Source of the DNA: Sclerodactyla briareus
Lineage: Eukaryota > Echinodermata > Holothuroidea > Dendrochirotida > Sclerodactylidae
Direction of reading: 5' to 3'
Assembly: GCA_026419785.1 (NCBI GenBank)
Contig: JAODTK010005749.1
Location: forward strand, 1-64,000
Length of the DNA stretch: 64,000 bases
Positions 1,345 to 60,477 of the stretch are shown piece after piece. A model generated the notes under the pieces. That model did not search any database, had not been told where the DNA came from, and saw only the letters and a list, made by a program, of their open reading frames with translations. Every line of letters starts with the position of its first letter. Position 1 is the first letter of the stretch. The translations under genes were made by a program, and so were the position numbers.

Positions 1345-2255
1345 CTGAGTGAGGAAAAAGTTTATAAAGGTGTATTAAAGATCATCATAATGACACATAC
1401 ACCAGTCTCTAAGTATTTAAGACTTATCCCCTGAGATTCGTTTTCCCAGAGACACTAACAAATATCAGAGTATTACATTAACAGTTAAAAAACTTATTTA
1501 CAGCCATGTATCCATTGTATGAACAGTTCAGATTGATATTTTTTACCTTTTGGTCAAATAAAGTGTCATACTCTGGCCTAATCTGATTTGCATTCATTAT
1601 TTTTACTGACTAGGGAAACTGAAGTTTTTTTGTTTGGGGGGGCGGGAGAGGGGACTGGTCCAATCATTGGATGTGATATGATGCGTGCCCTTCATGATAT
1701 GAATCACTTGAGAAATGGAGCGATCAATTATGAATATGCACATCATTAATATGAAAGTAAAGATTTTGAGCGCAACTCTCCAAAGGAGGAACATGACTTC
1801 CTTACAACACACAGTTTACAACGGGTTGGCTACTTGCTTAAACTTCTGGCAAGTTGGTCTCCTCTTCCTGTTGACTGCCTCTAGGTTTAAATGGATTATA
1901 CAGCTGTGGCTTCAACTAGAGTCTCTGAAGTGTTGAGTCGGCATTCTGTAATAAACTATTCAAACCGTTTACCCGCGAAAAACACCCAATCTATTGTAAT
2001 GAACGCTAAGCTAACATTATTTAGCCGTGACAGATAAGTATGTCACACGGTGATATACAGCAGTCAGCACTTGGATATACACCAGACAGCCATGGTAATC
2101 ATTAGGCCTTCACCAGTACAGTGGAAGCACTGCACTTGAATATGCCGAAGTTTAACTTGCAAGACCTCAATTACTAGACCCACAAGTGGAAAAAAAAAGT
2201 TAACATGATCGCTGAAAAAACTAATTTGTCAGAATACCTGACCTTCATACAACTT
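1345..2255. other. Intron sequence without recognised content
   Basis: AT-rich DNA between the exon at 1288-1344 and the GC-rich mobile element. No repeat, RNA gene or conserved reading frame was recognised. Confidence 0.4.
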
Positions 2256-2361
2256 GGCGTAGCCCTGAGCAGGAATTCTTATCCCTGCCTTGTTCGCACG
2301 GGCCTCTTCGAAAAAGCGTATAACCCCGCTCTGTTAGTCGGGGCTCTTTACGAAGAACGTA

Positions 2362-2649
2362 CCTAACCTTCTGGAATCATAACTAATGCGTTTTGGAATC
2401 AACTGCCCACATATCGGACCTAAATACCACCAACAAACCCTTTTGGATTCGCGCTACCGTCCCGACTACACATAGCGGTTTAGTGCCACCATAGGCAAAT
2501 TAACTCTTAGTCCCAACCGAATAATCCCCAAGAGCGCGGTGGGTGCGGGATGTCCCCAGAAGGTCGTTACGACTTCCCGTAAATACCCCGCTCAACATGA
2601 CGTGGTTATTTAACTCAAAGCTCCTACCTTCTGTGGAATAACTAATGCG
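2362..2649 (+). repeat. Short direct repeats near the end of the DIRS-like element
   Basis: CCTAACCTTCTGGAATCATA followed by ACTAATGCG at 2362-2390 recurs as CCTACCTTCTGTGGAATAAC followed by TAATGCG at 2623-2649, 261 bases away. Ngaro and PAT-type DIRS-order elements end in split direct repeats, so these may be one such pair. No matching partner was found at the right end. Confidence 0.5.
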
Positions 2650-2781
2650 ACATACCACCGCTCCTGGAGTGGGCGGGCGAAGGGAATACTAAGGAGTACT
2701 CACCACTGGAGAAGGCTGCTCTTTTACTCTTGTTCCAGCGACGACGAGAGGCGACGACCGGCTATCGCCGTTTTACCCATA

Positions 2782-2980
2782 TTAACACTGGGGGGGGTCC
2801 CACGCCCGTTTCTGCAGTCGGCCGGAACGAGAGGACATTCCAGACTCTGCTAACAATACTTCACGTAGGTAAACAGAAATGAACGTATTGGGAGAATTCC
2901 AACCTGCTGCCTTTAGAATCTCTCTCCAAGGACTCCCCTGATAGGGCCCAAGTGACCATGGCCCGACATGCCATTGCTCT
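2782..2980 (-). pseudogene. C-terminal remnant of a tyrosine recombinase
   Basis: The minus-strand stretch REILKAAGW then NSPNTFISVYLREV at 2925-2857 fits the end of DIRS/Ngaro-type tyrosine recombinases, where (D)IL.AAGW....TF...YLRD contains the nucleophilic tyrosine region. Only about 200 bases separate it from the RNase H region, far too short for a full recombinase of about 300 residues. Most of the domain must have been deleted, or the reading is rearranged. No other recombinase block was seen. Confidence 0.5.
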
Positions 2981-3129
2981 GGGACGTTGTCCCGGCAGGC
3001 CATTGGGGTAAGCTCTAATGAAGGCCTGGACGATCCATCGTGAAAGTGGTGATCCTTTGAGGCTCGTCTGTGTGGACGCAGTTTGTGGTTGCGTTCGCTG
3101 CGAAAGGTCTTAGCTCCGGGTACCACATT

Positions 3130-3700
3130 TGATTGAAGATGGCTGCCGTCACTGACTTTGGGAAGTGACCCGAGGAGTGGCCCAGGAAACTCTGGATAGG
3201 CAATCCGTCCTGGAGTTCTCCACCCCTGGAAGGTGTTGTCGCCCTGACCGACACCTGTGTCGGGCTCACCCATTGAAAACAGTTCCACTTTATCACCACA
3301 GGCGAAACGAGCGTGTCCCGCCCTGTCCTGTTGAAATCCACCACTACCGAGCGTGTTGTCCTTCTGAATCAACACGGTTTTGCCTCGACCCAGCGCTCGA
3401 ATCCATCCCCGAATGGCCACGAGCAACCCGCTAAGAGTTTCGAGGGCGTTGATGGCCAACGACGCAAGGGGGGTTCCCACGGTTGAGCCAACGTTTTCAC
3501 TGGCCCATAGTGGCTCCCCATCCCGAGAGTGCCGCATCGGTCGTCACTATTACGCCCGAGGATGATGTAGGAACGACACGCCTCTTACCCGATTTGCGGG
3601 ATCTGACCACACTGAAAATCTTGAGGTACAGGGGCCCGCTGACCCTGTGAGACAGAGGGTGAACCGTTGGGCGGAAGCGAGCGAGCAGGTGAACTGCAGT
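3130..3700 (-). pseudogene. RNase H domain of the DIRS-like element
   Basis: On the minus strand, LYMRFTAVHLLARFRP near 3700 matches the linker (R.LQ....) between RT and RNase H in DIRS elements. VTTDAALSGWGAT near 3545 matches the RNase H start (TDAS..GWGA) with its first catalytic aspartate. After a frameshift near 3520 the next frame carries ASLAINALETL (family: H.N.LEL) and VLIQKDNT near 3365 (family: DNT with a catalytic aspartate). The remaining C-terminal part is mixed between two frames. Confidence 0.75.
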
Positions 3701-4385
3701 GAACCGCATGTACAGTCGACACAGGGGACCAGGTCCACTACAACTCGCCGGTAGAGACACCCAGGCAGACCGCCATGGCTCGGGCCGTCGGGGATGGAGA
3801 CTCCTGGCAGAGTCGGCTCCCTGTTACACTGCCTGTACCGCCCTCAGTTGGGGTCGCCATCCCCATGATCAGATCTATCTCGTCCCCCATAAAGGTCACT
3901 TTCTTACACGGAGTCAGGGAGGCCTTAGTGGGATTTATTAACCACCTCCCAGTCCCGGGGAAGGTCGAGTACCCGTTGGGGTTCCGTCAAGACCTTTTTC
4001 TGAATGGGGCCCATTATAAGCAGTTCGTCCAGGTACTGAAAAATCTGTACCCGCCCTGGCGGAGATAGCCCCATCACTCTGGTGATGCTTGTACATGTTC
4101 TCGGGGCCGTCTAAGGCCGAACGGAGGGCTTTGAACTGGAGCGACCGGCCTTCGGAAGACGAAAACCCCGCCCGGCTGGGTCCTCTTCGTTACTGTATTT
4201 TAGATACTCATCCGAGAGATCCATAGTCTTCGCCCAAGTCCCTGCCGCAACTGTGACCCAATCACGGACAGCGTGTCCCTTCTGAATCGTAAGGGGGCGA
4301 ACGTGGTGATAGAGAGGCCGCAAATTGATAATGGAGCGCCCACTCCCTCCTTCTTGGGCGCTAGAAAGAAGTTGGATGAGAACAG
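3700..4385 (-). pseudogene. Reverse transcriptase domain of the DIRS-like element
   Basis: Read on the minus strand. SNFFLAPKKEG near 4376 corresponds to the family's (F/V)LVPKKDGG..RP start, followed by TMDLSDEYL near 4230 for the first catalytic block (usually SLDLKDAYL). QYLDELLI at 4038-4016 is the active-site box, normally YLDDLLI. The second catalytic aspartate is thus glutamate here. SLTPCKKVTFMGDEI near 3905 is the thumb-side motif S.L.P.Q...FLG. Frameshifts separate the blocks near 4100 and 3950. The domain is recognisable but inactive as written. Confidence 0.8.
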
Positions 4386-4699
4386 TAGGGAGTATGGGTC
4401 CTCCCCCTCCGTGATGCTCCTTTGTGTAGGATGTCCCCGATCTCCGCGTGTAGGGACTTTGCGCCTTCGACCTTCCGCTGGGGTCTGGTCACCCGTCGTC
4501 GTCGTTCCGACTCGGGGGGCGAGGTAAACTCCAGGCATCTCCCTGCAGCAACCCACCGTTGACCGAACCCAGCGATCCTCCGTTGGAGAGGTCCACGCCT
4601 TCCGCGGGAACCGCGTCTCCCCCTCCCGCCCACTGGATCCGGGATAACGGAGACTGCGGCAGCTGGGATATTCATTGGGAACTGCCTCCACGCTTCCCT

Positions 4700-7343
4700 C
4701 GCGAAGATCTGCCTCTTGCAGGCCGCGAACGGAGCGGGAAGGGGCCTGGCAGATTGGGAAGGGGATTCCCTGGCTCTTTGTCGCCCTTCGCCTGGTTTGC
4801 GCGCCTCGACTACGTTGGCCCCTCTGCTGTGATCTTCCCCTGGACTGCGCCCTCCTTGCGGTTGTCCTACCCGAAAGCGCCTGCGACGTAACGTCGTTTT
4901 CGTTTTCTGAAACGTCTCTGTCTAGATACTTCGGCAGCGACGCGCCGGCGGTGTAGTCCCCCGCCGCAGAGCGTCCCCAAGCCTGAAGGGGGAGTCTGAG
5001 TGCCTAGCTGCTATTCGTCCACCCAACATAGGATAATCCTGGCCGACGGAGTCCGTGTAGCCTTATTGTGTGCCACCCGCAGAATATTGCTCCACGTGGA
5101 AACGGTACAAACTGCCGAGAGAACATTCCACCCAGAGTGGTCCATCTCTGGTCCCGCGTGTCGGGTGGTGAGACCGTAGCCACTCTTTTACCATGAACTG
5201 CAAGGCCCTTCTTTGAGCCCGAAACGGGCCGCCCTATCGAAGCTACATAGGTTTCCAGTTCCGTTTTTCACGGCGGTGTCCTGTTTACCTCGTAACGGCA
5301 CCACTGTTTCCCCTCGTGCGGTGGCAACTGCCCCTTTTGCCTTATCAAAGGCGTCCCATGCTGCTGGGGGCTACGGAGCGGCGAATGAAATCGCCTAACT
5401 TGGGATTCGGTGAATGTAGGGCCCTATCAATTGCAAGTGGAAGGATGACGCCCTTCTGCCTGGCCATACCTCTAATAGCTTTGCAATTCCCCGTCGAATA
5501 GCAGTTTTGGGGCGGTTTTGTGGCTCGGTACTGCTCGAGCTCTAACCCCCATGATAGCCTGTGTCCATGCCGTATGGAGGAAGCTTCCGCGACGGAAGGT
5601 TTGCGGTACCGGCAGCTTTGTAATGATCTGAGAGTAACTGGGCGATTCTGTTCGTTATCCTCTGTAAGGATTTTATCGATAGACGACGAGAGAGTTCATA
5701 CCGCTTTCGGGGGTTCCGGGCTTGCTCGCGGGTGTGCCCGCTTTGGTGTCCTCCAGTTGAGCGCTTGAAGAGCGGCTCAACCGTCGCGCGTCCCAGAGTC
5801 TCGTCCTCGTGCCCTCTGATACAATAGAGAGCCAGATTCCTCGCCTCGCCGAATTGTCTTCTTTCTCCGCGTCTAGCCGTCGAGGCATATCTTCAAGCTC
5901 ATCTGCCCTCCGTGTGCCGTACCCGGATTGTCCAGTCCCCGTACTATGGGCGTGTCGGGTGCCCTCGACTGCGTGTGCCTGTGAACCCAGGGTCGTGACC
6001 AAGATGAGAGCTGAGCGCTCTATGCGGATTATTTCCGCTGGCCGTATGGGGGGGCGTACGCCCTATCTCTCGTGGAGAGTTGAGCGACGGGACGTCCAGG
6101 TCGTGCTCGGTGAGCGGGAACCGTCGTGAGGAATGGCTTGATCGGCGTTCGACGCATCGTCTGCTTCGGGACCTTTCCCTAGAACCGGAGGTCGACCGTG
6201 AGGGCGAGTGTCTGGACGATCTAGCGCTCGATCTGGACCTGCGTCGGGATCTGTTTCTGGCCTCCCTTCTCTGCGGGGAGCGGCTACTGCTGCGTATCCT
6301 GGCCTCCTCCGACCGAATGGGACACATCCCGGTCGATTTTTGGGGCTGGAACTAGGGTGACCCTCGGATTCCGCATCCGAAAATGCTCCTGTGTGCGGGG
6401 CATAGATAGTGCAGAATTCCAGGTTGGAGGTGTAACGGGTTGATACCCGCTTGGTATGGCTGGAGGCGGCAAAATCCCGAACGTGATGGGACCTGAGGGG
6501 GTCCCGAGCCTGCTGATGGGCTTCGCTCTTCCTCGTGAGGCGGCTTCCCTGAGTTAGGGACCAGCGTCCTAGCCAGTTGTGGAGCAGTGGGTTGCCGATC
6601 GCGCCAACGACCGTGGGTGTTGGTGGGGGTACGGTGGTGGCATCCTGTACCGTCGTAACCGCTACGATCGAGGGGGGGTTCCCGTATGCGTGTCCCTGGC
6701 GTCTTGATCCGCTTGGCAGTTTTGGCTGAGGCCCTGACAGTTGCTTGTCCCCACTGGTTACCCTTGCCAGTGACTTTTTTTAAAAAGAAAAAAGTCCTGA
6801 CTCTCTTAACCGGTGCCTGTACCGTATGAGTGGTTTCCGTGCGGGTAATGCACCTCTCCAATGTCCCTCACTGAGCCCTGAAGCTTACTGGCGTGTCCTA
6901 TCCGTGTATAGACACATCCTCCATCGAAGGGTTCACGGACTCACCGGCGGAGGGAACCACTGTTGGGTGCCCCTCTCAGGGCCCGTGTTCCAAAGCTCTT
7001 CTACCCAGAGCCTACTGTGCGTTCCGGCGAAGAACCGAAGACCGTATAAAATCGGCTGAAGCGTAGGTCCGGTTCCGTGTTGGGCGCCTCTCTAAGGTCC
7101 CCACGGACTAACTCACGTCCTCTCCTGGGTGGCCTACTAACCTCTTCTCAAGGGTTGAGACCGTAAAAGCGTACGGTAAACCGTCGCGAAAATGCAGCCT
7201 GGTGTCCTGGTGGTGTGTTTGCTCCTCTCTCGAGGGCGCCACGGGCTCATAGTGACTCGATGCTCCAGAGTCCGGCCCGGCTTACGGTTACCCTTGTATG
7301 TATACCTTACCAAAACCTGGTTCGAGTAGTAGATACGGAACAC
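4700..7343 (-). pseudogene. Gag-like region of the DIRS-like element
   Basis: Several overlapping frames on the minus strand read as a basic, low-complexity protein. Around 5944-6327 it is strongly arginine/serine-rich, and near 6352-6861 rich in proline, threonine and arginine. A plausible start lies near 7343. Such composition is common in nucleic-acid-binding gag proteins of DIRS-order elements, but no specific motif proves it. At least five frame changes separate the open pieces. The position directly before the reverse transcriptase is the main support. Confidence 0.45.
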
Positions 7344-9025
7344 CTACAGACCGTTATGACGATCCGTTCCCGGAGTCGAGAACTCTACGGGGGCTCAGGT
7401 CAAATTCGAAATTATTTTGAATGAAGCTTGTTCCTCGGACTGACACGGGCGACTTAAGAACCTACCGGGGTATCTACTAGCTAGGACCGCCTCCGACTAC
7501 CCTGGTCCGCTTGATAAGCTGGACCTCAGCGACTTATAATGTACACTGGTGTAAGGCAGCAAGATTATTTCTCTGAAAGTTCTTCACAGTTCACACAGAA
7601 AAAAGAAGGAAAATTCCCTAAGTGCAGCTTTTGGAAGTCTCCCTGATGGGCACCTACCCTATTCCGGTACTTACCTCGCCTTTATTATGGTGAGTCTTTG
7701 GAAGGGAATAACCCCCGTGGGGCGGCCTGCTTTGGGGTGGGACACCTGTCGCTAGCCAGCGAAGTAGTACCTCTTCAACCGCCCACCGCAGCTTTCCTTT
7801 CAAACCTGGACTTCTTGCGGATGATTAGGTTGTCCGTACGTTCTGCTGCCTCAACGCACCAGATAATCGTCGGTGTGGTCTGTAACATTGTGCAAAAATT
7901 AGGAGAAAATCCTGCTAGTAAAGTCGTCATGTGTGGAGCGAGGTACACAGCGTTCTTGCGCCCTCTAACATACTGCCTCTTACCTCGATATAATCTGCAA
8001 ATTAACCTAGAGAGCAACTCTGACAATGCATAATGTGACCTCAGCATTTAACAAGTTTGGGGGGTCACGACCCTCCCGAAGGGGATACAAGGCCGATTTG
8101 TGGAAAATTTCCCGTTCGGACCGCACACGGATTCCTCAGGGGGGAGGGCCTGTGTGGAGAGATAGAAACGGTTAAGTGTCACGTGACATATGAGGTGTGA
8201 GGGGAACATAGGGGTACCAACCCCCCCCCATCACCTGAGGTGCCTGCCCCTCCCTACCGGAGGGGGGGTATACACCCTGCTCGGATGCCGAAGCACGTCG
8301 ATGGGTCGATCTTCGGCGAGCTCCCCCCTACTACTGGGAGGGCAACGGTCTCGAAGGGGTCCACAGGATAGCCCCCCCTCTTATCTATCCCTTTTTTTCA
8401 ACACAAAAATGGACATTTGTTGCCCTGGGGTCAGATGAGAGCCGGCAAAACATCATAATAAATCCCGGTCTGATGGCCCCCAAGGCAATCCATAAGTAAC
8501 AATACATGAATAATTTCAGGCCCAACAGTAATAATATGCCATGAACGACCCAATGAAATGAGGTCTCATGGCGGCAGGCCAGCCATAGCCGAGGCGTGAA
8601 CAAGCCCAATGAGGGCTTTGTACGTGTTAGGCCTCACATAAACGCCTCACCGAGCAGGCAAAGCGGGAGCGGCGCACCCCGTGTGTACAGTGAGTGAGAA
8701 TGCTAACGATAACCCAATGTAGGATCGGTTGACACCCCGAGCAAGACCTCAAATGAAAACTTCCTAACGGGAAGGGCGGCAAGGCCGACGAATGTTGAGA
8801 GTGGGTGCTCAAACGACTCTCCAAATTCAGTATTGTGGCAGTAAGGGGAAGCACGCCTAAGCTGGCGAGACCTGGGGGTAGCCCAGCGGCGCGCCAAAGT
8901 CTCGACCGCAGGACACGGAGGGGCCTATGCAAACACAGGCAGTGGAAAAAATGGCTCCCGCTCTCAGCACGGCGAAACTCGCTCGCACTGGGAAACGTGC
9001 CTACGCACCGTCCAAAACGGTAAAT

Positions 9026-9860: not shown

Positions 9861-11226
9861 CCCAAGTGTTCAGTCATAGGGATGAAGGAATAGCAGGCAG
9901 GGTCCAAGTTCATGTCATAGATTAATAGCATAGCATTCAGGGCCCAAGTTCTGTCATAGGGTGAATTGCATAGCATCAGGCAGGCCATAGGATGATGGCA
10001 TACAGCAGTGCTTCAAGTTTCATGTCCTAGGGATAATGACATAGCAATCGCAGTGCCCAGTTTCATGTCAGTATGGATTGATGGCATAGCAAGCGTGCCC
10101 AAGTCATGTCATAGAGATGAATGGCAATCGGCAGTGCCCAGTTCAGGTCATAGAGATGAATGGCATAAGCAGGCAGGGCTTCATAGGGAGGAATGCATAG
10201 CAGGCTTAGTGCTCAAGTTCATGTCAGAGGGATGAAATGACATGCAATCGCAGTGCCAAGGTCATGTCCTAAGGAATGAATGGCATTAGACAGCAGTGCC
10301 CAAGTTCAGGTCATAGGATGAATGGCACATAGCGCAGGCCCAAGTAGTTCCGGTAATAGAGAGGAATGGCTAGCAGGCAGGGCCAAGTTCATGTCATAAG
10401 ATGAATGGCTTTATAGCATGGCATGGAAGAAGTTTATTCGTAGGGATGAATGGTTATAGCAGGCCGGGAAGCAAGTTCATGTCAAAGGGATGAATGGCCA
10501 TAGCAGGAGGGGCCCACGTTCATGTCATAGGGAATTAATAGCCATAGCAGGCACGGCCAAGTTCATGTCTAGGGATTAATAGCATAGAGGGCAGAGCCCA
10601 AGTTTCATCTCATAGGATTGAATGGCTATAGCAGGCCAGGCGCAAAGAAATTTAATGTCAGAGAGATGAATGGTATAGCAAAGGCAGTGCCCAAGTTACA
10701 TTGTCATAGGGATAATAGATAGCAGGCAAGCCCCAAGTTCATGTCATACGGGATTAATAGATAGCAGGCAGGTCCAAGTTTCATGTCCTAGAGATGAATG
10801 GATATAGCAGGCAGGCGCAAATTCATGTCTCATAGAGAGAAATGGTGATAGCAAGCAGTGCCAAGTTCGGTCATAGGGATTAAAGCATAGCAGGCAAGGC
10901 CCAAGTTCATGTCAGAGAGATTGAATGGCATAGCAGGCAGGGCCCAAGTTCATGTCATAGAGAGTGAATGGTTATAGCAGGCCGGCAAAGCAAGTTCATT
11001 TAGTAGGGATGAATGGGATGAGCAGGCAGGAAGCAAGTGGAAGAAAGTTCACGTCATAGGGATGAATGTCGCACCATAAGCAGGCAGGCCAAGTTAATGT
11101 CATAGTGAGATATAGCAAGCAGGCAAGGCCCAAGTTCAGTCATAGGGGATGTAATAGCCATAGCAGGAGGGCCAGCTCATGTAATAGAGAATGAATGGCG
11201 AAGCAGGCAGTGCACAAGGTCATGCC
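9861..11226 (+). repeat. 42-bp minisatellite array (~32 copies)
   Basis: The unit is close to AGTTCATGTCATAGGGATGA followed by ATGGCATAGCAGGCAGTGCCCA. Copies are imperfect and differ mostly by one-base gaps, so unit length varies from about 38 to 46. The array ends about 145 bases from the kelch exon at 11371-11451, inside the intron. No protein is read through it for more than a few units. Confidence 0.9.
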
Positions 11227-11370
11227 ATGGTAAAGCAACCTCTTCGTTCAGATTCCTGGTATGCCGGCAGTGGGGTTGTGGCATGGTAAGGGACAATGCG
11301 GCATCGCCACGTTGTAGATGACCCCCACATGCTCCCAATAACATTTTGAGATCAGCGCAGATCAACTCAC

Positions 11371-15936: not shown

Positions 15937-16334
15937 TCCCCCATCACTTCTGAGAAAGTAATGATGCATCATGCTGGGCTGGAAGCACACTAAATGATAC
16001 ATGTCAAAACATCTTGCATTCTTTGAATTCATTTTGATTTTACTCTCCTGCTTTGGTGCAGGCTCTGAAACCCTTTAACTAGCACAGACACATGAGATCA
16101 GACATTCTGTGTTTTCTCTGGCATGCAGTGTTCAAAAATCTTCATTATCGCCATTTTAACATCCAATTTTCCCTTTCGTGGATTAAAACAGTTATGCAAC
16201 ATGAATTGATATAACTGTCTTGAATCAGTTTTGGAGGTTTCCCAAGAGGTTCCATTTCAAAAGTAAACATTGGTACATACAATCATGCCGTCTTATGTCA
16301 ACTTAAATTTCATCGGGAGTTCTCTACAGTTGCA

Positions 16335-19300
16335 GCCCCGTAACCCTACCAATTCCGCAGTCACACCCTTCAACATACTGGGTACAAACTCAGCCACTTA
16401 CAGAATGAGTAGAGCCCAGGAACCCTACCAATCAGCAGTCACACCAACTCAACATGACGGTACAAACTCAGCAGCTTCCATACATACTGATAAGACGCCC
16501 AGTAACCTACCAATCTAAGGCAGGCAAACCACTCCAACATGACGTACAAAATCAGCCGATACATACTTAAAGAGCCCAGTAACCCATACCAATCCGCAGC
16601 AGTAACACCACTCAACATAACTGTACAACGCAGCCACTCACATACTGATAAGAGCCCAGTACCCCTACCAAATATGCAGTCACACCACTAAAACATAATG
16701 TACAAACTCAGCCACTACATACTGATAGAGCCCAGTAACCCTACCAATCCAACAGTCACACCACTCAACATGACAGGTACAAACTCAGGCCACTACATTA
16801 CTGATAAGAGCCCAGGAACCTACCAATAGTAAGCAGGTCACACCACTCACATGATGGTACAAACTCAGCCGCTTACATAATGATAAGAGCCAAGTAACCC
16901 TCCATCCAGCGCCACACCATCAACATAAAGGTACAAAACTGCAGCCACTCTTACATACTGATAAGAGCCAAGTAACCCTACCAAACAAGCAGTCACACCA
17001 CTCAACATGACGGTACAAACTCAGCCGCATACATACTGATAAGAGCCAGTAACCCTACCAAACAAGCAGTCACACCACTCAACAGACTGTACAAACTCAG
17101 CCGCATACCTACTGATAAGAGCCCAGTAACCTACCAATCCAGCAGTCACACCACTCAACATGGACTGTACAAACTCAGCCGCCTACATACTGCTAAGAGC
17201 CCAGTAACCCTACCAATCCAGCCGAGTCACACCACTCAACCTAACGGTATCACAACTCAGCCGCCATACATATATAAGTAGGCACAGTCAGTAACCCTAC
17301 CAATCAAGCAGTCACACCACTCAACATAATGGTACAAACTCAGCCACTTACATACTGATAAGAGCCAGTAACCTACCAATCTAGCAGTACACCACTCAAC
17401 ATAACTTACAAACTCAGCCACTTACATTACTGATAAGAAGCCCAGTCCCAGTAACCCTACCAAACAAGCAGTCACACCACTCAACATGACGTACAAAAAC
17501 TCAGCCACCTAAATACTGATAAGAGCCCAGTACCCCTACCAAGCTAGCAGTCACACCACTCAAAATGATGGTACAAAAACCCTCAGCGCTTACATACTGA
17601 TAGAGCCCAGTAACCCTACCAATCCAGCAGTCACCACAACATAACGGTACAAACTCAAGCCACTTACATACTGCTAAGAGCCAGCTAACCCTACCCCAAT
17701 CTAGCAGTCACAACCACTCCATTACGGTACAAACTCAGCCGCATACATACTGATATAGAGCCACAGTAACCCTACCAATCCAGCAGTCACACACCTCAAC
17801 ATGCCTGTACAAACTCAGCCGCATAAATAACTAATAAGAGCCCAGTAACCTACCAATCCAGCAGTCACACCACTCAACATGACTGAACAAACTCAGCCGC
17901 ATACATACTGATAAGAGCCCCAGAGCCAGTAACCCTACTACCAAACAAGCAGTCACACCACTCAACATAACGGTACAAACTCAGCCGCATCCAGACTGAT
18001 AGAGCCCCGTAACCCTACCAAACAAGCAGTCACACCACTCAACATGACTGAACAAACTCAGCCGCATACATATGATATAAGAGCCCAGAACCCTACCAAT
18101 CCAGCAGTCACACCACTCACATGAATGTTTACTACAAACTCAGCCGAAGACATAACGATAAGAGCCAGAACCCTCATCAGCAGTCACACCACTCAACATT
18201 ACGGTACAAAACTAGCCGCATACATGCTGATAAGAGCCCAGTAACCCTACCAATGAGAAGTCACAACACTCAACCTAAAGGTACAAAACTCAGCGCATTA
18301 CATTACTGAATAAGAAGCCCAGTAACCCTACAAATCCAGGCAAGCAGTCACACCACGCAACATGACTGTACAAACTCAGCCGCATACATACTGAAAGAGC
18401 CCAGTAACCCTACCAATCTAGCAGTCACAACACTCAACATGACTGTACAAACTCAGCCGCATACATACGATACGAGCCAAGTAACCCTACCAAACAAGCA
18501 GTCACACCACTCAACATGACTGTACAAAACTCAGCACTTAATATGGATAGAGCCCAGTAACCCTACCAATCCGCAGCCCACACCACTCAACATGACTGAA
18601 CAAACTCAGCCGCATACATTACTGATAAGAGCCAGTTAACCTACCAATCCAGCAGTCACACCATCAATAACGGTAACAAACTCAGCCACCTAAATACTGA
18701 TAAGAGCCCAGTAACCCCTACCATCCAGCAGTCACACCACTCCAACATGACGGTTACAAACTCAGCCGCATATACATACTGATAAGAGCCAGAACCCTAC
18801 ACAATCAGCAGTCACACACTCAAGGACTGGGTTAACCAAACTCAGCCGCTACTACTGATAAAAGCCCAGTAACCTACCAATCCAGCATTCACACCACTCA
18901 ACATGACTGTACAAATTCCAAACGCCATATATACTGATAAGAGCCCAGTACCCTACCATCCAGCAGTCACACCACTCAACATGGAACGGTACAAACTCAG
19001 CCGCATACATACTGAACGAGTCCAAGTTAACCCTACCAAACAAGCAGTCACACCACTCAAAATGACTGTACCAAAACTCCAGCCGCATATTACATACTGA
19101 TAAGAGCCCAGTAACTCTAGCCGTCACACCACTCAACATGACGGTACAAACTCAGCCACCTAAATACTGATAAGAGCCCAGAACCCTACCAATCCAGCAG
19201 TCACACCACTCAACATACGTACAACTCAGCCACCTAAATACTGATAAGAGCCCAGTAACCTACCAATCCAGCAGTCACACCACTTCAACATAACTGGTAC

Positions 19301-19403
19301 AACTTAGCACTAAATACTGATAGAGCCCAGTAACCCTACCAATCTAGCAGTCAACCACGCAACATGGACTGGACAAAACTCAAACCGCATACATACTGAT
19401 AAG
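16335..19403 (+). repeat. 78-bp satellite array (~39 copies)
   Basis: The unit reads about ACTCAGCCGCATACATACTG, ATAAGAGCCCAGTAACCCTA, CCAATCCAGCAGTCACACCA, CTCAACATGACGGTACAA. Variation among copies is dominated by one- and two-base gaps plus recurrent alternatives (CCAATCCAGC or CCAAACAAGC; ACGGTAC or ACTGTAC). The array sits inside the intron between the exons at 14260-14332 and 20287-20390. Confidence 0.95.
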
Positions 19404-21940: not shown

Positions 21941-22457
21941 ATCTCTGTATGATCCATGACATCTGGGCTGTTGGTGATCTCTGTATGATCCATGAGATCT
22001 GGACTGTTGATGATCTCTGTATGATCCATGAGATCTGGACTGTTGATGATCTCTGTATGATCCATGACATCTGGGCTGTTGGTGATCTCTGTATGATCAA
22101 TGAGATCTGGACTGTTGATGATCTCTGTAAGATCCATGAGATCTGGACTGTTGATGATCTCTGTAAGATCCATGAGATCTGGACTGTTGATGATCTCTGT
22201 AAGATCCATGAGATCTGGACTGTTGATGATCTCTGTATGATCCATGACATCTGGGACTGTTGACGATCTCTGTATGGACCCATGAGATCTGGACTGTTGA
22301 TGATCTCTGTAAGATCCATGAGATCTGGACTGTTGATGACTCTGTAAGATCATGAAGATCTGGACTGTTGAGGATCTCTGTATGATCCATGAGATGTGGA
22401 CTGTTGATGATCTCTGTTATGACCATGAGATCTGACTGTGATGATCTCTGTTATGCA

Positions 22458-22631
22458 GGGTTCAACTTAACTGGATTAGCTAGCAGTGTGGCATAGCCAA
22501 ATTGGCATATAAGTGCTTAATTCATACACAATTGCTTAGCATTCTGTGAATAGCAACACACACAAGGCTTGGGGAGGGTCGGCCATTTTCATTGAAGAGG
22601 CTAATCGAAAAACGATCACTAAATTGAACCC
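22458..22631 (+). mobile_element. MITE-like insert, copy 1, in the 36-bp satellite
   Basis: About 174 bases starting GGGTTCAACTTAACTGGATT and ending AATTGAACCC, so the ends are imperfect inverted repeats. It is AT-rich and has no reading frame. The interior contains TTAGC-rich stretches and CAACACACACAAGGCTTGGG. Whether it was ever a transposon is inferred from the terminal symmetry. Confidence 0.6.
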
Positions 22632-23354
22632 ATTCGTATGATCATTGAGATCTGACTGTGATGATCTCTGTATGATACATGAGATCTGGACGGTGATGTT
22701 CTCTGTATGATCCATGACATCCTGGATGTTGATGTCTCTGGATTATCCAGGAGATCTGGATGTGATAATCTCTGTATGGACCATGAGAGCTGGGGCTGTT
22801 GATGATTCTGTAGAGCCATGCGATCTGGAGGTGTTGATGGTCTCTGTCGTATGATCCATGAGATCGGACTGTTGATGATCTCTGTATGATCGATGAGATC
22901 TGGACTGGTTAATGATCTATGTATGACCATGAGATCTGGACTGTTGATGTCTCGGGAGGATGATCCATGAGATCTAGACTGTTGATGATCTCTGTAGGAT
23001 CCATGAGATTCGGGACTGTTGATGTCTCTGTATGATCAATGAGGATCTGACTGTTGAGGATCTGGGTATGATCAATGAGATCTGGACTGTTGATGATCTC
23101 TGTATGATCCTTGAGATCTGGACTGTGGATGATCTCTGTATGATCCTTGAGATCTGGGTGTTTGCGATTTGTATGACCCATGAGATTGACTGTTGATGAT
23201 CTAGGTAAGTCCGAGATCTGGACTGTTTATGATCTCTGTAAGATCCATGAGAAACATTGGAACTGTTGATGTCTCTGTATGATCCATGAGATTTGGGCTG
23301 TTGCGTCTTCTGTAGGACCCATGAGATCTGGCTGTTGATGATCATATAGTATCA

Positions 23355-23522
23355 GGGTTCAACTTAACGATTAGCATCGCAGTTTGCTAGCCAAATTGGC
23401 ATAATTGCTAATTCATATTCAGCAATGATTAGCATTTGTGACTAGGCAACACACACTAAGGCTTGGGAAGTCTGCCTTTTCATTGAAGAGTGTAATCGAA
23501 AACGAATCACTAAATTGAACCC
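23355..23522 (+). mobile_element. MITE-like insert, copy 2
   Basis: Second copy of the ~170-bp insert, beginning GGGTTCAACTTAACGATTAG and ending AATCACTAAATTGAACCC. It is 897 bases after copy 1. The terminal symmetry is clearest here: the complement of the end reads GGGTTCAATTTAGTGATT. Confidence 0.6.
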
Positions 23523-24065
23523 AGTCTGTATGATCAATGAGATCTGGACTGTTGATGATTCTGTATGACCACAGAGATCTGGACTGTTGATGATCTTTTT
23601 ATGATCCATGAGATATGACTGTTGAGTCTCTGTATTATCCATGAGATCTGGACTGGTGATACATCTCTGTATGATCCATGACATCTGGGATGTGATGAGC
23701 TCTGTATGATCAATGAGATTGACTGTTGATGTTCTATGTCGTATGATCCATGGAGGACCTTGACTGGTTGATGATCTCTGTTATGGATCCATGGATCTGG
23801 ACTGTTGATATTATGTAGGACCCATGAGATCTGGACTGTGAGTCTCTGTAATAGAGCATGAGATCTAGACTGTTGATCATCTCGGTATGATCCATGAGAT
23901 CTGGACTGTTGATGTTCTTAGATCCATGAGATCAATGTTGATGATCTCTGTATGATCCAAGAGATCTGGACTGTTGATGATCTTTTTATGATCCATGAGG
24001 ATTTGGGCTAGTGACGATCTCTGTAAGATCCATGAGTTCTGGACTGTTGATGATCTCTGTATGCA

Positions 24066-24233
24066 GGTTCAACTTAACTGGCTTAGCATAGCAGGTTGCT
24101 AGCCAAATTGCGCAGGATGCTAACATATCCACAATTGATAGCATTTTGGGAATAGGCAACACACACTTATTGGCTGGGAAGTCTGCCATTTTCAATGAAG
24201 AGTGATACATCAAAACGAATCACTAACTAACCC
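24066..24233 (+). mobile_element. MITE-like insert, copy 3
   Basis: Third copy, starting GGTTCAACTTAACTGGCTTAG and ending near CACTAACTAACCC. It lies 711 bases after copy 2. Its end is slightly eroded. Confidence 0.55.
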
Positions 24234-24965
24234 ATCTGTATGATCCATGAGATCTGGAATGTTGATGATCTCTGTATGCTCCATGAGATCTGGACTGTTG
24301 ATATCTCTGTTGATCCATGACATCTGGACTGTTGATGTCTCGTATTATCCATGAGATCTGGACTGTGATAATATCTGGTTATGTGATCCATGAGATCTGG
24401 ATGTTGATGACTCTGTATGATCCATGAGATATGGAAGGTTTTGATGGTCTCTGTCGTATGATCAATGAGATCTGGACTGTTGAAGATCTCTGTATGAATC
24501 CATGAGATCTGACTGTTGATGAATCTATGGTATGACCCATGAGATCTGGACTGTTGAGGGTCTCGGTGTTATGTCCATGAGATCTCGACTGTGATGATCT
24601 CTGTATGATCCAGTGAGATCTGGACTGTTGCGTCTCTGGATGATCAATGAGATCTGGCTGTGAGGATCTCTGTATATCCATGAGATCTGTGAATTTTGAT
24701 GATCCTCTGTAGATATCCATGAGATCTGGACTGTGATTGATATCTGTTTGATCCATTGATGAGATTTGGGCTGTTACGATCTTGTATGACCCATGAGATT
24801 GGACTTGTTGAGGATCTCTGTAAGATCCTGAGATATGGACTGTTGATGATCTCTGTAAGATCCATGAGATCTGGACTGTGGATGATCTCTGTATGATCCA
24901 TGAGATGGGTGTTGGCGATCTCTGTGTATGACCCATGGATTCTGGACTGTGATGATCTCGATGCA

Positions 24966-25137
24966 GCGGTTCCAAATAATGGAGTGCTAGCAGTTTGACT
25001 AGCCCAAATTGCATAAATTGCTATCATATACACAATTGATTAGCCATTTTGTGGATAGGCAACACACACTAAGGCTTGGGAAGTCTGCCATTTTCATTGA
25101 AGAGTGCTAATCGAAAACGAAATAACTAAAGTGAACA
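24966..25137 (+). mobile_element. MITE-like insert, copy 4
   Basis: Fourth copy, with a damaged start (GCGGTTCCAAATAATGGA) and an end near AACTAAAGTGAAC. It lies 900 bases after copy 3, repeating the copy 1 to copy 2 spacing. Confidence 0.5.
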
Positions 25138-25681
25138 CTTCTGAGGATCCTGAGATTGGAATGTTGATGATCTCTGTATGATCCAAGAGATATGGACTGT
25201 TGATGATCTCTGTAGGATCCATGAGATCTGGACTGTTGATGTTCGGTAATCATGAGATCTGGGAGCTGTTGTAATCTCTAGTCTGATCCATGAGATCTGG
25301 ATGTTGATTATCTCTGGATGATCAATGAGGATTGGACTGTTGATGTCTCTGTAGTATGATCAATGAGATCTGGACTGTTGATTATCTCTGTATGATCCAT
25401 GGGATCTGGACGTTATTATCTATTTATGACGCCATGAGATCTGGACTGTTGATGTCTCTCTTCATATGATCCATGAATCTAACTGTTTGGTCTCTGTATG
25501 ATCCATGATATCTGGACTTTTTGTCTCCTGTATGATGCCATGCGATCTGGACTGTTGATAGCCGTATGATGCCATGAGATCTGGCTGTTGCTGATATCTT
25601 ATATGATCCATGAGTATTTGGGTCTGTTGACGTCTCTGTATGCGCCTAAGAGATCTTGGACTGTTGATGATCTCTGTATGC

Positions 25682-25866
25682 AGGTCTTCAACTTAACTGG
25701 ATTCCATAGGCATTTGGCTACCAATTGGCATCGATTGCTAACATATCCATCATTGACGAGTCATATTTTGTCAATAGGGGTGGGCAACACACACTAAGGC
25801 TTGGGATGTCTGCCTCTTCATTGAATAGTGTTCTACATCAAAAACGAATCACTAAATTGGAACGAA
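25682..25866 (+). mobile_element. MITE-like insert, copy 5
   Basis: Fifth copy, starting AGGTCTTCAACTTAACTGG and ending near AATCACTAAATTGGAAC. It lies 716 bases after copy 4, repeating the copy 2 to copy 3 spacing. The satellite fades out about 90 bases beyond it. Confidence 0.5.
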
Positions 25867-25956
25867 CAGGCAATGCAACCTTTCTTGTATGATCCTAGAT
25901 ATCTGGCTGGATGATGGCCTGAGCTCTGGTCTGTTGATGATCGTCTGTATGATCGT

Positions 25957-45999: not shown

Positions 46000-46104
46000 G
46001 GCTAGGCTCACATGAGCCGTTGGTAATGGCTGTCGTCGGCTTAGCTCTACGGCTTTATTATATGTTTGTGTGTTGTGACATTTGTCACATGTTCAACTCT
46101 CAAC

Positions 46105-47365
46105 ATGTCAACCAAAACTGGATCATGTTCATCGTGTGGATCAAACCATTGTAAGCTGCTGTCATGTTTCATGTGCAAACTTGAAACCCACGCATATGAC
46201 TGCAATGATAGTGACAAGAAGTTACGCCCATCTTTCTTTGCTTCTTTAGAGTCTGCAACAAAGAATTACCCCAACTTCTACTTCATTTGTGATCATTGTA
46301 TTACAACCAAGGAAGTCAGTGACCACTCCGTAATTGCTGATCGGTTTGCAGGTATTGACCACAAGCTTGATGCTCTTACACAAGCGATTACAGCTATTAG
46401 AACTCTCTTGATTACCCGTTTCCACTCAGAGACCGTAATCCTCCAGTAATACCATCAGTTATTGTTGGTGGTTCTGGCGAGGAACCTTCCATTGTGAGTG
46501 ATCACACTACATCTACCCTGCGTGCCCCTTCTGTCGACTCACCTTCTCGATGTTATATCCACTTTCCATCAAAGTGTTGCATTCGGGGAATCACCGCAGT
46601 TGATTCTATCCGCCTCATCCACTGCTGGTCTACCCTGTCTTAAGCCGGGTAAGTACAGGAAATCAAAAATTCTTTGTACGAAGAAAAGCAGGTCCTGATT
46701 GTGACTGATGAGAACGTTTGATGTTCACGCCTTGCAGAAAACGGTGGTAGACAATTCTATCCGGTTACAACCAATTATAAATCTCAGAGGTTCAACAGGT
46801 TTTGATCTTTCCAGATGAAATGCAAAAACTGCGATGAAACTCAACTTGAGGGGTAAATTCAGTGTTTACTAGCCTGAAGAGGAGACCCCGACTATTACAT
46901 GTTGCCTTCACACCTGACTTGACAATGATTCCCTCATCACATACTATTGTTAATCAAAATCATGAGTACACAAATGGTTTGTGAGAACAAGGTAGATTGC
47001 TCATCTGAAGGTACTGTACATTAACCAACCAAAAAAAAAAATACTTGAAGGTCCCAAGCTGTTTATCGGTCAGTAATGAAGTACGTGAAACTCACCATAA
47101 TCGTGGCAATCGTCTCAACATTGTTATCCTCTTTTATTGTCTACGATCGTTCTTCATCACACGATGCAACATATGCCAACGCTTTGGTCACTTCAAAGGT
47201 CAATGTCCGACTCCATCCAGTCCATCCTGCGCCAAATGCAGCGAACCCCATGAAACGGAAAGATGTGAATCGATAGGAGTTGCGTGTTGTATCAACTGCA
47301 AGCGAGCTAAACACCCTAACAGTGACTCGCATTCAGCCTACTCCCTGAATTGTGAGACATATTGA
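46105..47365 (+). pseudogene. LINE ORF1 with PHD-like and CCHC zinc fingers
   Basis: Starts at ATG 46105 (MSTKTGSCSSCGSNHCKLLS). The first ~70 residues have cysteines and histidines spaced as in a PHD-like finger (C..C, C..C...H, C, then FICDHC), a known feature of some CR1-group ORF1 proteins. A helix-rich stretch follows (IDHKLDALTQAITAI), then a frame break at 46449. The end carries a gag-like knuckle near 47166-47365: CNICQRFGHFKGQCP, then CAKC.EPHETERC and CINCKRAKHP. Such fingers bind nucleic acid in the ribonucleoprotein. Broken in the middle by stops. Confidence 0.7.
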
Positions 47366-56256: not shown

Positions 56257-57769
56257 TCACTGTCATACGGCATAGATTCATGGAGATAGGAATAACATGG
56301 GAGGGGGTGACATGTTCTGGATGAGGCAACACACACTATTGGTACGCCTGTACGATGAAGACACAATAGTTGACACGCGTCTAGAATTCCTTTTCATGCC
56401 CGAAACTTTGGATCAACAGGTTTACCCAAATGTCGCTCATCTTGTGGTGGGCTCTCGATGAAGAATTCGTTCCCCCAGCTCTAAGGAATAGGCGCCTTCC
56501 CTGTGAATCCTGCTTTCTATATATACGTACTTAAACAACATGTCTGAGTGATGGGACGGGAAGGCGGTGCTGTTCGCCATCGTTGGTGTCCTGATGACGA
56601 TATGATCTTCCTCCTACCCTCTCGTCAGACATCTCGTCAACGGTTATGTTTCTCGATAACTCTCTTCATTCACTTCACGTCGCTCATTCCTTTGTTCTTC
56701 TGGCGTGAAGCTGAAATGAAGGGGTAAATACAGAGTCAACCCGATGAATACTGCATAAATCTCCCATCAAAATGAATGATCGTGGTACAATATTTTCTCA
56801 ACCCTTACTTGTCCATTTCATCTCGAAAACTGATTTTGTGAGAACGAAAATGGATTTCACGAAGCGTTCACGGGATACGAATATTATGTTATCGACTCAA
56901 CCCAGCAACTCTTGAACTGTTGTGTATAATTCACACAACATTTTGTATCTCCACACTATCCCGGTATGTGTGAGGATTAAACAACATTGGTGTAAAAATA
57001 CCATCTGTTCGATCATACATAGTCATGTGTCTTCCCACACCACACCGTCGGTAGGTGTGCACTTTACACACAGTTAAAGAGTGAGGGGTTTGGCCAATGG
57101 AGTGCGCCAGTGCCGATGATAGAAGTTTTGTTTTGTTTTATACGGTCCCATATATTTCTAGCCAGGTTTTCAGATTACTTACTAAAAAAAAATCGCTGAA
57201 CAGTATGAACCGCTGGCAGTAGACTTCGATGTCATTGACCTACAATTTCTACTTCTGAGACCTCAGATCTTTCGCTGGTTAGTTTGATGGCTTTCATTGG
57301 CCTCTAATGAATGACCACACAAATCCAGGACCGTCCCCTACTGTCCATGGTTCCAAATAGCTATTCAATTGGATACCGCAAATACATTTTATTATATTGC
57401 CCAGCTGGAACTCTTCAAATTAGACCTCACCAAAGGAATTAACCTCCCGGACTATTTTCTATGCAAACCGTTCACCCAATATTGTAGAATGGTTGTCACT
57501 AAACACGTTCAATCTCTCTCGGTACCGACACACAAGGAAAATAGCGACATAGTCGACCGAGAGTGGACAGTTTTCTGGCCTAGAGAAATGTGACCATGGA
57601 CAGATTTGACATCATACCGTATTTGACCTCCATCTGTGATGGTAATCCAATGGCTACCTCTCTCTTCTTTCTTCACCATTTCGCTCGAATGATTGCAATC
57701 TATGAGTCGGCGAGGGTGAGGCCGAATTAATTGTGCAATTATACGCACCATCAGGGAGGCGATCAATGT
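56257..57769. other. Spacer DNA without recognised gene
   Basis: AT-rich sequence, nothing recognised. Confidence 0.4.
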
Positions 57770-57858
57770 TGGGGGGGGGAGCGGGGGGGAGCGGGGGGGG
57801 GACGTGGGGGGGGGGGGGGAGGGGCGAGGGGGGGGGGGGGGGGAGGGGGGGGGGGGAC
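57770..57858 (+). repeat. Poly-G rich tract
   Basis: About 90 bases almost entirely G with single A, C or T interruptions (AGC, ACGT, AGGGGCGA). The minus strand gives proline-only frames which are not genes. Runs like this can form stacked G-quadruplexes and are hard to sequence. Confidence 0.9.
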
Positions 57859-60342
57859 GGGCGTCCCCCCCAATAATTGGTTGGGAGGGCACAATTCATT
57901 TTGTCCCCGCCCGGCCCCGGGCCGCCGATTTTGAGCCTGCATGCTATTTTGCTGGCACTGTTTCCGACATATCCAGGCACAAACAGTGTTAACACAAATG
58001 CATAATGACCTAATTATCAAGTTGAGTAATTCTGCTGCTCAACTTGTCGAAATTTTGCGCGCGTAGAACGCGCCGGGTATTTCGTGTTCCGGTTATTTCA
58101 GAACAAAAGATGTGCCTTGTGCGACATATATGCTCCTTAACAAAACAAAAAAATCCAGAATTTACCTCCGGGCTTTTCTTAATTATCAATGAAGAGGGTT
58201 GCCCTTCAATCCTTAAACAGGAATGTTAGCATTTTGGTTCGGACTGTGCTAGGTCTGGTACAGAATCGTAGTTGCAAATTCAATTAACACTGAAACCTCC
58301 TCCGCATAACCTTTTGGCAATTACAATCCAGGATGAGAGCCGAAATGAACTATGTCAACCGGGGGCACCATATAGAGTCAGTCTCCAAGTACAAAAATGG
58401 TCTTCCATCAGCTAGGCGTACACAACTAAAAATTTATTCAGTCTACCAGCCTTCAGATCAATTCCAAAGGAGTTTCACACACTTGGGGGCGTTCATTTTG
58501 CTGTTTTAGGACAATATTTTTCGCAAAATTTTCTTAACTCAGCGCCATTGAAGGGTTCGCTTATAGATTGTGGCCCTAGATAGGCCTAAATAACTCTCGT
58601 GATGATGCAGACCTTACTTCTCTAGCTCATTTCCCATTACAACATTTGGCGACGAACTAATTATCCAAATAGATTTTCCATGTACATAGAGTCGAAGTTT
58701 TGCTGTTTTGGACTATATTTTCGACAAATTTTCTACGCTAACGCTACGCGCTATGGTTGACGTTCCCCTAATGGATGGTTCGTCGTCCATACTAAGTCTT
58801 GCGGTATCACGGCAGCAGGCTTCTTTCTTCTGCCCGCCTCATAAACTCACGAATATGCGCAACTATAACAGACAGTGGTACATACAATGCAACCGGAAAC
58901 AGGGCATCCCCCCCCCCCCCCTCTCCTCTCACAATTGTTGGTGCACAATCCGACAGGATACAATGGAAATACACAGAGAATGGGGAATCTGGGGCAGAGA
59001 AATGTCAAAGTAAAAAAATAACTACCAGGACATTTCTGCGAGTGTCCGATTGTTTTACGTGTCCGGAAGAGGCCGGAAGATCTTCGGCGCTTCCACGCAC
59101 ACGACTAATAAGAGTGTGCCAATGTAATTTTAAACATTCTGGCCCAAAGCTGAGTCGGCGAAATCGAGGTCCGGCAAAATGTCAGATTTTCCCCGATTGC
59201 ACAATCTGCTGTGATCTAAAATAACCCACGTTTTGGAGCATGGTACATGTCATACCCGAAACGCTCGGGAAAGGTCCTTCATCTGGGAAGCTTGCACAGC
59301 CAAACAATTCATTGTACGCTCTGTCGCGCCTACCGATGAGGCCTCCGCTTAGACCGTATTCTTGTACCCCCTGTCAAATCCCCCCCCCCCATGTGACTTG
59401 GGCTCATTTTGAATTTTTGGTAGCTTTTCACCCCCCTCCTCGTCAGACCCTAGCTACGTCCTTCATTCAGCCACCTGTCTGACCCCCATTGGAAGTGTCC
59501 CCCTCCCATGTGCCCGTGGGTCGGCAAAGAAGAATTAAAATGGGGGTCGTAATTTTTTAGTAAAACATTCAGGTCTATCTAATTAGGTCAGAGAGGGGTC
59601 CAAGTGTGAGTCGTTGGTCAATTTGGGACTCCTGCAAAATATCGCGCTTCGCGCGAACGTAAGTGGCTGTTGCTATTGCCCATTCCACTGCTTCTTTCAT
59701 TCCCCCATGCTTTTTGTTTTATCACATCTTCAGAATGTCAGCAGCACACCCAACGCAAAACCTGAAATTATCACTGAGGCGATAAGTTTTTGAAGAACCT
59801 TTCCTGAAAAAAATTGTTATCAACTTTAGGAATGCTGCTTAACGTCCCATAAGGCACGGGACGTGCCGTTTCCTGCAATCTAGGGGGTCTGTCAACGAAA
59901 AATTTTCTTCTACGCTAACGCGCCAACCTGTGGTTGCGCTTCGCTTATAAAGATTTCGTCTTGGCCGTCCCCCCCGGTGCCCCAATCGCCAACACAAATA
60001 GCCGTCCTCGTACGCACCTAGGAAGATTCACACGTGCGGAAACAGCTTTGTAGAGAAACATGAGTGTCCCTTCATGAAACACTAAGGGGGTTGCCGTGTA
60101 CCTGTACACTTGAACCATGTGGGGTTCTCCGCTTATTTTACGACATACGAACAGTTTGAACATAGGGAACCCGTTTATATAATTATGATATGCCTGATCA
60201 ACTATTGTGCTCTGCATTGTTACGCTGCCTCTGCACTCGTACGCGTTGGTGAATGCCGCCATATTCGCCTTCCGCCCTCTATCAATCGTTTATGCCATCA
60301 CATACCCTCAAAGATTACTGATTTGGGACATTTTTCGTTTTG
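57859..60342. other. Spacer DNA with short repeats and C runs
   Basis: Includes poly-C runs at 58908-58921 and 59380-59390, the direct repeat near 58493 and 58696, and a related ATTTTCTTCTACGCTAACGC stretch near 59903. Open stretches near 58799-59224 have no known motif. Confidence 0.4.
58493..58745 (+). repeat. Direct repeat TTTTGCTGTTTT..TTTTC, ~203-bp offset
   Basis: TTTTGCTGTTTTAGGACAAT near 58495 and TTTTGCTGTTTTGGACTATA near 58698, both followed by TTTTCG.(C/A)AAATTTTCT(TA). The second copy runs into TACGCTAACGCTACGCGC, which recurs near 59908. Confidence 0.6.
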
Positions 60343-60477
60343 GGTTTTTTTTTTTTTTTCCACTTGTGCCTTCCCTCCCCCCCCTTTTGGGGGGGTTTTT
60401 TTTTTCCCCCTTTTTTTTTTTTTTTTTCCCCCCTCCTTCTTTGGATGTTTTTTATTTTTTGGGGCTTTTTTTTTCTC
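60343..60477 (+). repeat. Pyrimidine homopolymer tract
   Basis: Alternating runs of T (up to about 20) and C with one G run. Possibly true low-complexity DNA, possibly an assembly artefact. Frames read through it are phenylalanine/proline strings and are not genes. Confidence 0.85.

Follow-up and report, generated by a model that had tools for sequence, protein, structure and literature searches.

A putative hAT-type MITE within a 36-bp minisatellite, probably inserted once and co-amplified into a compact two-level repeat

Introduction

Complex higher-order repeats (HORs), frequently with extraneous elements, are called usual in the available text of PMC5615363, where several mammals and insects are named as examples and the units of human alpha-satellite HORs are given as more than 95% identical. 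Satellites and class II elements are connected in numerous cases listed in the accessible part of PMC9659126, including a mariner-like element within the satellite DNA of Messor ants. Titles and abstract openings in the literature yielded no description of the locus presented here.

Here we present the organization of a minisatellite array that probably received a single miniature inverted-repeat transposable element (MITE) and then grew by a two-step tandem duplication. The window, that is the whole stretch of DNA that was analyzed, covers 64 kb at the start of a 362-kb contig; genome searches covered 319 Mb in 3171 contigs, and this size together with the presence of tubulin genes marks the genome as eukaryotic.

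Organization of the array

A 36-bp minisatellite with the monomer ATCTCTGTATGATCCATGAGATCTGGACTGTTGATG fills positions 21941-25953. Tandem Repeats Finder delimits the array at 21941-25680 with 104.3 copies, from where degenerate monomers continue to 25953. The minisatellite is split by five inserts of about 175 bp, and the blocks between them measure 20.33, 15.33, 20.28 and 15.28 monomers. These sizes bear out the alternation of about 20 and about 15 monomers, with a period of about 1.61 kb, that the first-pass annotation had proposed. The order along the array is P0-I1-A1-I2-B1-I3-A2-I4-B2-I5, followed by a degenerate end E; block limits vary by 1-2 bp between analyses. The features are as follows.

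P0, 21941..22455, plus strand: first satellite block, about 14.3 monomers of 36 bp, the first 300 bp free of indels
I1, 22456..22632, plus strand: MITE copy 1 (CAGGGTTCAAC...TTGAACCCA)
A1, 22633..23352, plus strand: long block, 20.3 monomers
I2, 23353..23524, plus strand: MITE copy 2, followed by the right copy of the target-site duplication, TCTGTATG, at 23525-23532
B1, 23525..24063, plus strand: short block, 15.3 monomers
I3, 24064..24234, plus strand: MITE copy 3, flanked on both sides by TCTGTATG (24056-24063 and 24235-24242)
Left target-site duplication copy at I3, 24056..24063, plus strand: 8 bp, TCTGTATG, monomer phase 3-11
A2, 24235..24963, plus strand: long block, 20.3 monomers, in register with A1
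I4, 24964..25140, plus strand: MITE copy 4, altered at both ends, with an approximate 3' limit
B2, 25141..25680, plus strand: short block, 15.3 monomers, in register with B1, with a terminal TCTGTATG at 25673-25680
I5, 25681..25879, plus strand: MITE copy 5, the most altered, 3' limit approximate
E, 25880..25953, plus strand: last 2.4 monomers or so, degenerate, after which the array stops

BLAST searches of the window with each insert as query found the five inserts in the satellite at the places first noted, and their spacings of 897, 711, 900 and 716 bp hold. The exact starts, at 22456, 23353, 24064, 24964 and 25681, had been set 1-2 bp too far to the right and were moved because the dispersed copies described below put the 5' end at CAGGG. 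I5 contains extra bases in its middle and close to its 3' end. With all five inserts as queries no sixth full copy was detected in the window, the best other match being 28 bp of I4 at 56311-56338 (E 7e-4). No further locus of the 36-mer was found in the genome, all 34 matches lying within the array in a search that can miss common words, and an exact-pattern scan of prokaryote contigs gave 0 matches. Judged from these searches, the minisatellite appears to be locus-specific.

The insert as a member of a dispersed family

A genome search with the consensus of the five inserts returned at least 40 matches, five of them in the window and 35 elsewhere. The latter sit on 35 other contigs with 81-95% identity, and 23 of them cover family positions 5-173 of 176, or more. 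All 35 were retrieved for the definition of the family ends and consensus. The consensus is 177 bp long, starts with CAGGGTTCGATTTA and ends with TAAATTGAACCCTG; the ends as defined by the dispersed copies are CAGGGTTC(A/G)ATTTAACTGG...ATCACTAAATTGAACCCTG. Dispersed copies bear the terminal inverted repeats CAGGG...CCCTG, whereas the copies in the array have CCCA(G) in place of CCCTG at the 3' end. When the 35-bp ends of the array consensus were locally aligned to each other, 12 of 2000 shuffles matched the result. An exact 8-bp target-site duplication flanks nine of the 35 dispersed copies, and no copy has an exact one at any other length from 5 to 12 bp; with at most one mismatch the 8-bp count rises to 12 of 35, against 0 among randomly paired flanks.

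CAGGG ends together with 8-bp duplications are the signature of hAT transposons, and we take the CAGGG...CCCTG inverted ends of this family to be of the hAT type. The mobile, MITE-like nature that had been suggested for the insert is thus supported by dispersed copies, defined ends and 8-bp target-site duplications. By its sequence the insert would be a non-autonomous DNA transposon of about 176 bp, a putative hAT-type MITE, with other superfamilies that make duplications of about 8 bp as formal possibilities.

The genome contains 38 matches to the hAT dimerisation domain, which represent remains of hAT transposases. Comparison of 30 of these 38 loci with the ends of the MITE confirmed no autonomous hAT element with the same ends, the end matches being no better than those of shuffles (best 15 of 20, against 14-16). 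One hAT transposase-like locus (L100, C2088:80001-89500) has at 6114-6125 a 12-bp end identical to the 3' end of the MITE, located 0.6 kb beyond the hAT domain; neither a partner end nor an 8-bp duplication was found for it, and it is a possible representative of the parent family. Another locus (L102, C2020:185500-190500) holds at 2177-2705 a copy of the MITE that appears to be interrupted near its position 26; the interruption, of about 350 bp, is probably a nested insertion. A partial relative outside the 40 scored matches (L101, C252:266000-274000, at 2915-3032) spans family positions 1-114 with 79% identity and the exact 5' end of the family. The insert core had 0 matches in viral contigs in an exact-pattern scan.

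These dispersed copies bear on a reading in which the satellite belongs to the interior of some larger mobile element, such as a tandem-repeat MITE or a Helitron-like element, and each supposed insert is the junction between two such elements in tandem. Elements of this kind are well known, as stated in the accessible part of PMC9659126. Here the dispersed copies own the ends of the insert and the 8-bp duplications, and no 36-mer was found adjoining them, so that this reading is extremely improbable.

Target site and monomer phase

The empty monomer has the structure GATC-TCTGTATG-ATCC and the filled one GATC-TCTGTATG-element-TCTGTATG-ATCC. Only I3 retains both intact copies of TCTGTATG; I5 retains the left one and I2 the right one. 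On the left side, monomer phase 11 is the best fit for I1, I3 and I5, with phase 7 scoring equally for the latter two, and I2 lies at 10-11; the right junctions of I1-I3 fall at monomer phases 2-5. No phase could be read at the junctions of I4 or on the right of I5, and I1 agrees apart from minor changes. All legible junctions place the inserts at one monomer phase. The occurrence of TCTGTATG at a single phase therefore probably reflects one insertion followed by co-amplification. The first-pass annotation had favored such a history, and the common target phase and the in-register monomer variants described below indicate that it is probably correct.

Two states that are rare in the family recur among the array inserts: C at family position 11 occurs in 4 of 5 array inserts but in 2 of 35 dispersed ones, and A at position 176 occurs in 3 of 5 and 0 of 35, respectively. 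Variants are also shared across the blocks by the monomers that follow the insert; the seventh monomer, for instance, has gained TG, C or both in each of the four blocks. A tree of the 40 copies fails to unite the five inserts; 4 changes are needed, and 70 of 500 shuffles gave a number as low.

A series of separate insertions by this MITE, directed to a preferred target site, would be compatible with the past mobility and dispersal of the family, with monomers that present the same 8-bp target every 36 bp, and with the failure of the five inserts to form one branch of the family tree. Such a series is nevertheless very unlikely: the blocks match in register and alternate in size, the two family-rare states are common to the array inserts, the 12 best target-site duplications of the dispersed copies lack a strong consensus, and a tandem repeat lies within 300 bp of only 5 of the 35 dispersed copies and is never the 36-mer.

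Register of the blocks

Monomer variants common to A1 and A2 at matching positions amount to 91.0 bits, against 15.4 +/- 9.1 after permutation (0 of 5000 as good), and those common to B1 and B2 to 37.5 bits, against 11.8 +/- 6.7 (p 0.0002). At zero shift A1/A2 score 4.3 bits per monomer, other shifts giving 0-1.9. B1/B2 score 2.3 bits at zero shift and 0-1.4 at other shifts, save for a shift of -8, which reaches 2.8 bits but over fewer monomers. Plain alignment gave 503 for A1/A2, against at most 438 in 19 register-shifted controls, and 343 for B1/B2, against at most 302 in 14 such controls. The alignment of 36-mers at matching positions, proposed earlier as a check, thus found both block pairs in register, beyond permutations and shifted controls. 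In both pairs, monomers that occupy the same position in successive units resemble each other more closely than those at other positions do, the relationship by which an HOR is recognized. There are two A-B periods plus P0 before I1, which falls short of the many successive units of an HOR. Over 1727 columns the successive A-B units match at 81%, with 12% gap columns, below the figure of about 95% for alpha-satellite HORs; this value is probably lowered by sequencing error and weighs little, and a homogenised HOR is not claimed.

In most comparisons A and B also match each other in register from the left end. Over the first ten monomers the four A-B comparisons gave permutation p values of 0.004, 0.002, 0.07 and 0.0005. 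Left-end alignments exceeded all shifted controls in three of the four, A1/B2 being the exception, and right-end alignments exceeded the controls in one of four only. Long and short blocks are thus related over about their first ten monomers, which adds one level of history to the model of the first-pass annotation. The last 252 bp of P0 scored above shifted controls against the tail of A2 (185.6, controls 173.4) and slightly above them against that of B1 (164.2, controls 159.4); scores were below controls against the tails of A1 (166.2 versus 177.0) and B2 (154.0 versus 164.6).

From the relatedness of A and B it follows that a unit of block plus MITE was probably duplicated first, that the copies then diverged by about five monomers, and that the pair was duplicated afterwards. 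In this history a hAT-type MITE of about 176 bp would have entered one 36-bp monomer once, duplicating the 8 bp TCTGTATG. The MITE and its neighboring monomers would then have been tandemly duplicated, probably via unequal exchange or replication slippage. The two daughter units would have come to differ by about five monomers (20.3 versus 15.3), and a second duplication of the A-B pair of about 1.61 kb would have given the present succession from P0 to I5.

A more active part for the MITE, in which fork stalling or breakage at its foldback seeded repeated duplication with a fixed run of monomers, is very unlikely. The single strand of the consensus folds back with paired ends at a z of -2.0 (5 of 200 shuffles as good), and that of I2 at -3.2 (2 of 200). 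With this effect the MITE would have imposed a regular two-level order on a minisatellite that had been plain before. The array behaves as neutral repeat DNA, with no function indicated.

Similarity among the inserts

Neighboring inserts are 0.781, 0.788, 0.744 and 0.641 identical (I1-I2 to I4-I5), and alternate ones 0.736 (I1-I3), 0.796 (I2-I4) and 0.615 (I3-I5). The expectation that I1 would resemble I3, and I2 resemble I4, more than their neighbors fails: neighbors are as similar, which the first-pass annotation itself had named as a refutation of its model. Non-family states common to exactly two inserts number 21, of which 8 join I4-I5, 4 join I1-I4, 2 each join I2-I4, I3-I5, I1-I5 and I2-I5, and 1 joins I3-I4. 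They are given little weight because several fall at gaps or altered ends; still, they do not favor alternation, and they make the model slightly less probable and its two main rivals, an assembly artefact and independent insertions, slightly more so. A tree of the inserts with their 35 relatives is nearly a star with long tips, and the one well-supported of its 37 inner branches unites I4 and I5. A pairing of each insert with the block preceding it (I1, I2 and I4 versus I3 and I5), suggested by a few motifs seen by eye and two sites, finds no support in the full list of shared states and is no more than a guess.

The similarity of the inserts is a weak test, most differences looking like sequencing error or ambiguous gap placement. 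Its failure weighs little here because the array shows one-base indels like those of unpolished long reads and because the monomer variants support the model independently. Raw insert similarity in unpolished repeats can mislead on duplication history in either direction.

Sequence quality and possible false duplication

From about 22250 on, the divergence of the array from its consensus in 150-bp windows amounts to 1-10% for substitutions, 0-6% for insertions and 1-8% for deletions, the last reaching 16% in the degenerate end. Indel events and substitutions number 64 and 57 in the inserts, against 265 and 325 in all 35 dispersed copies, of which the five best-matching have 0.1-0.2 indels per substitution. 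In one alpha-tubulin gene of this genome, two pieces agree nearly letter for letter with known tubulin, with one frame-shifted stretch between them. The conserved pieces of the alpha-tubulin loci are frame-shifted, by one stretch in L066 (C2306) and over several frames in L069 (C894), and the latter, a second alpha-tubulin-like locus, may be a pseudogene or poorly corrected. Such breaks point either to pseudogenes or to indel errors that remain in the assembly. Unique DNA would thus seem to be better corrected than repeats. Poorer correction of repeats would explain the misleading insert similarity, and it leaves room for a false A-B duplication.

Such a duplication would arise if there were one real A-B pair and two error-rich reads had been laid end to end, joined through the MITE; the 1.6-kb period would then be false and the MITE within the minisatellite still real. 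In its favor, single-base gaps account for most differences between the two periods (133 of the 159 runs of gaps, with 12% of columns gapped and 7% substitutions), the array is rich in one-base indels from about 22250 on after an indel-free first 300 bp, and the 43-mer and 77-mer arrays, two other long ones in the window, are similarly noisy. Against it, I5 and I3 differ by gaps of 11, 7 and 6 bases, which are long for the usual error, and the false join must lie inside an insert or preserve the monomer register. Even so, no fewer than three inserts would be left, along with two blocks of unequal size. We regard an assembly artefact as unlikely, and a real second duplication of the A-B pair as the preferred reading.

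Surroundings of the array

The array had been described as gene-proximal, for which we see no support: of 43 listed reading frames, 20 were tested against Pfam and 0 of these show a convincing host gene. They gave a weak below-cut-off match to ZU5 and two below-cut-off matches of the reverse strand of the satellite. Rfam and tRNA scans of the window were without matches.

The region of 9.8-26 kb is rich in minisatellites. Besides the 36-mer, 40-mer, 50-mer and 38-mer arrays occur, and further long arrays with many one-base indels lie at 10181-11228 (about 42-mer) and 16334-19403 (77/78-mer). Positions 2000-8000 are GC-rich (53-59%) in a background of about 41% and contain many overlapping broken frames, many of them on the minus strand; the piece at 4111-4488 had no Pfam match, and its translation resembles, by eye, what we take to be a DIRS-type reverse transcriptase. 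Two plus-strand frames at 46045-47365 have cysteine-rich, zinc-finger-like motifs and look by eye like ORF1 of a non-LTR retrotransposon; a zinc knuckle at 47.0 kb gave a weak Pfam match below the cut-off (E 0.047). A long G-rich run at 57771-57856 and homopolymer runs at about 60250-60500, judged from translations, are possibly sequencing artefacts.

Comparison with known systems

With hAT-type MITEs, of which the mar family of Drosophila is said to be an example, the insert shares the short non-coding form, the CAGGG inverted ends, the 8-bp duplications and the dozens of dispersed copies; it differs in that an autonomous partner with the same ends is not confirmed. Insertion and co-amplification in a satellite is a known sort of event, of which this locus is a further case that alters no general view. 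Its value lies in a compact two-level repeat caught early, in which a probable single insertion marks the unit, so that better data could give the order of the duplications.

In the Messor ants a class II element likewise lies in a satellite repeat, and it belongs to a different superfamily from the present MITE (PMC9659126, accessible part). The composite transposable-element arrays, or tandem composite repeats, of human and ape are tandem units of mobile elements and other repeats, and the available portions of PMC9186530 and PMC11168930 describe no MITE-minisatellite dimer of the present kind. As in the complex HORs treated in the available text of PMC5615363, monomers and a foreign element would have been copied together as a longer unit, whereas the present array of 4 kb, for which one locus was found, has just two periods, 81% alike as assembled.
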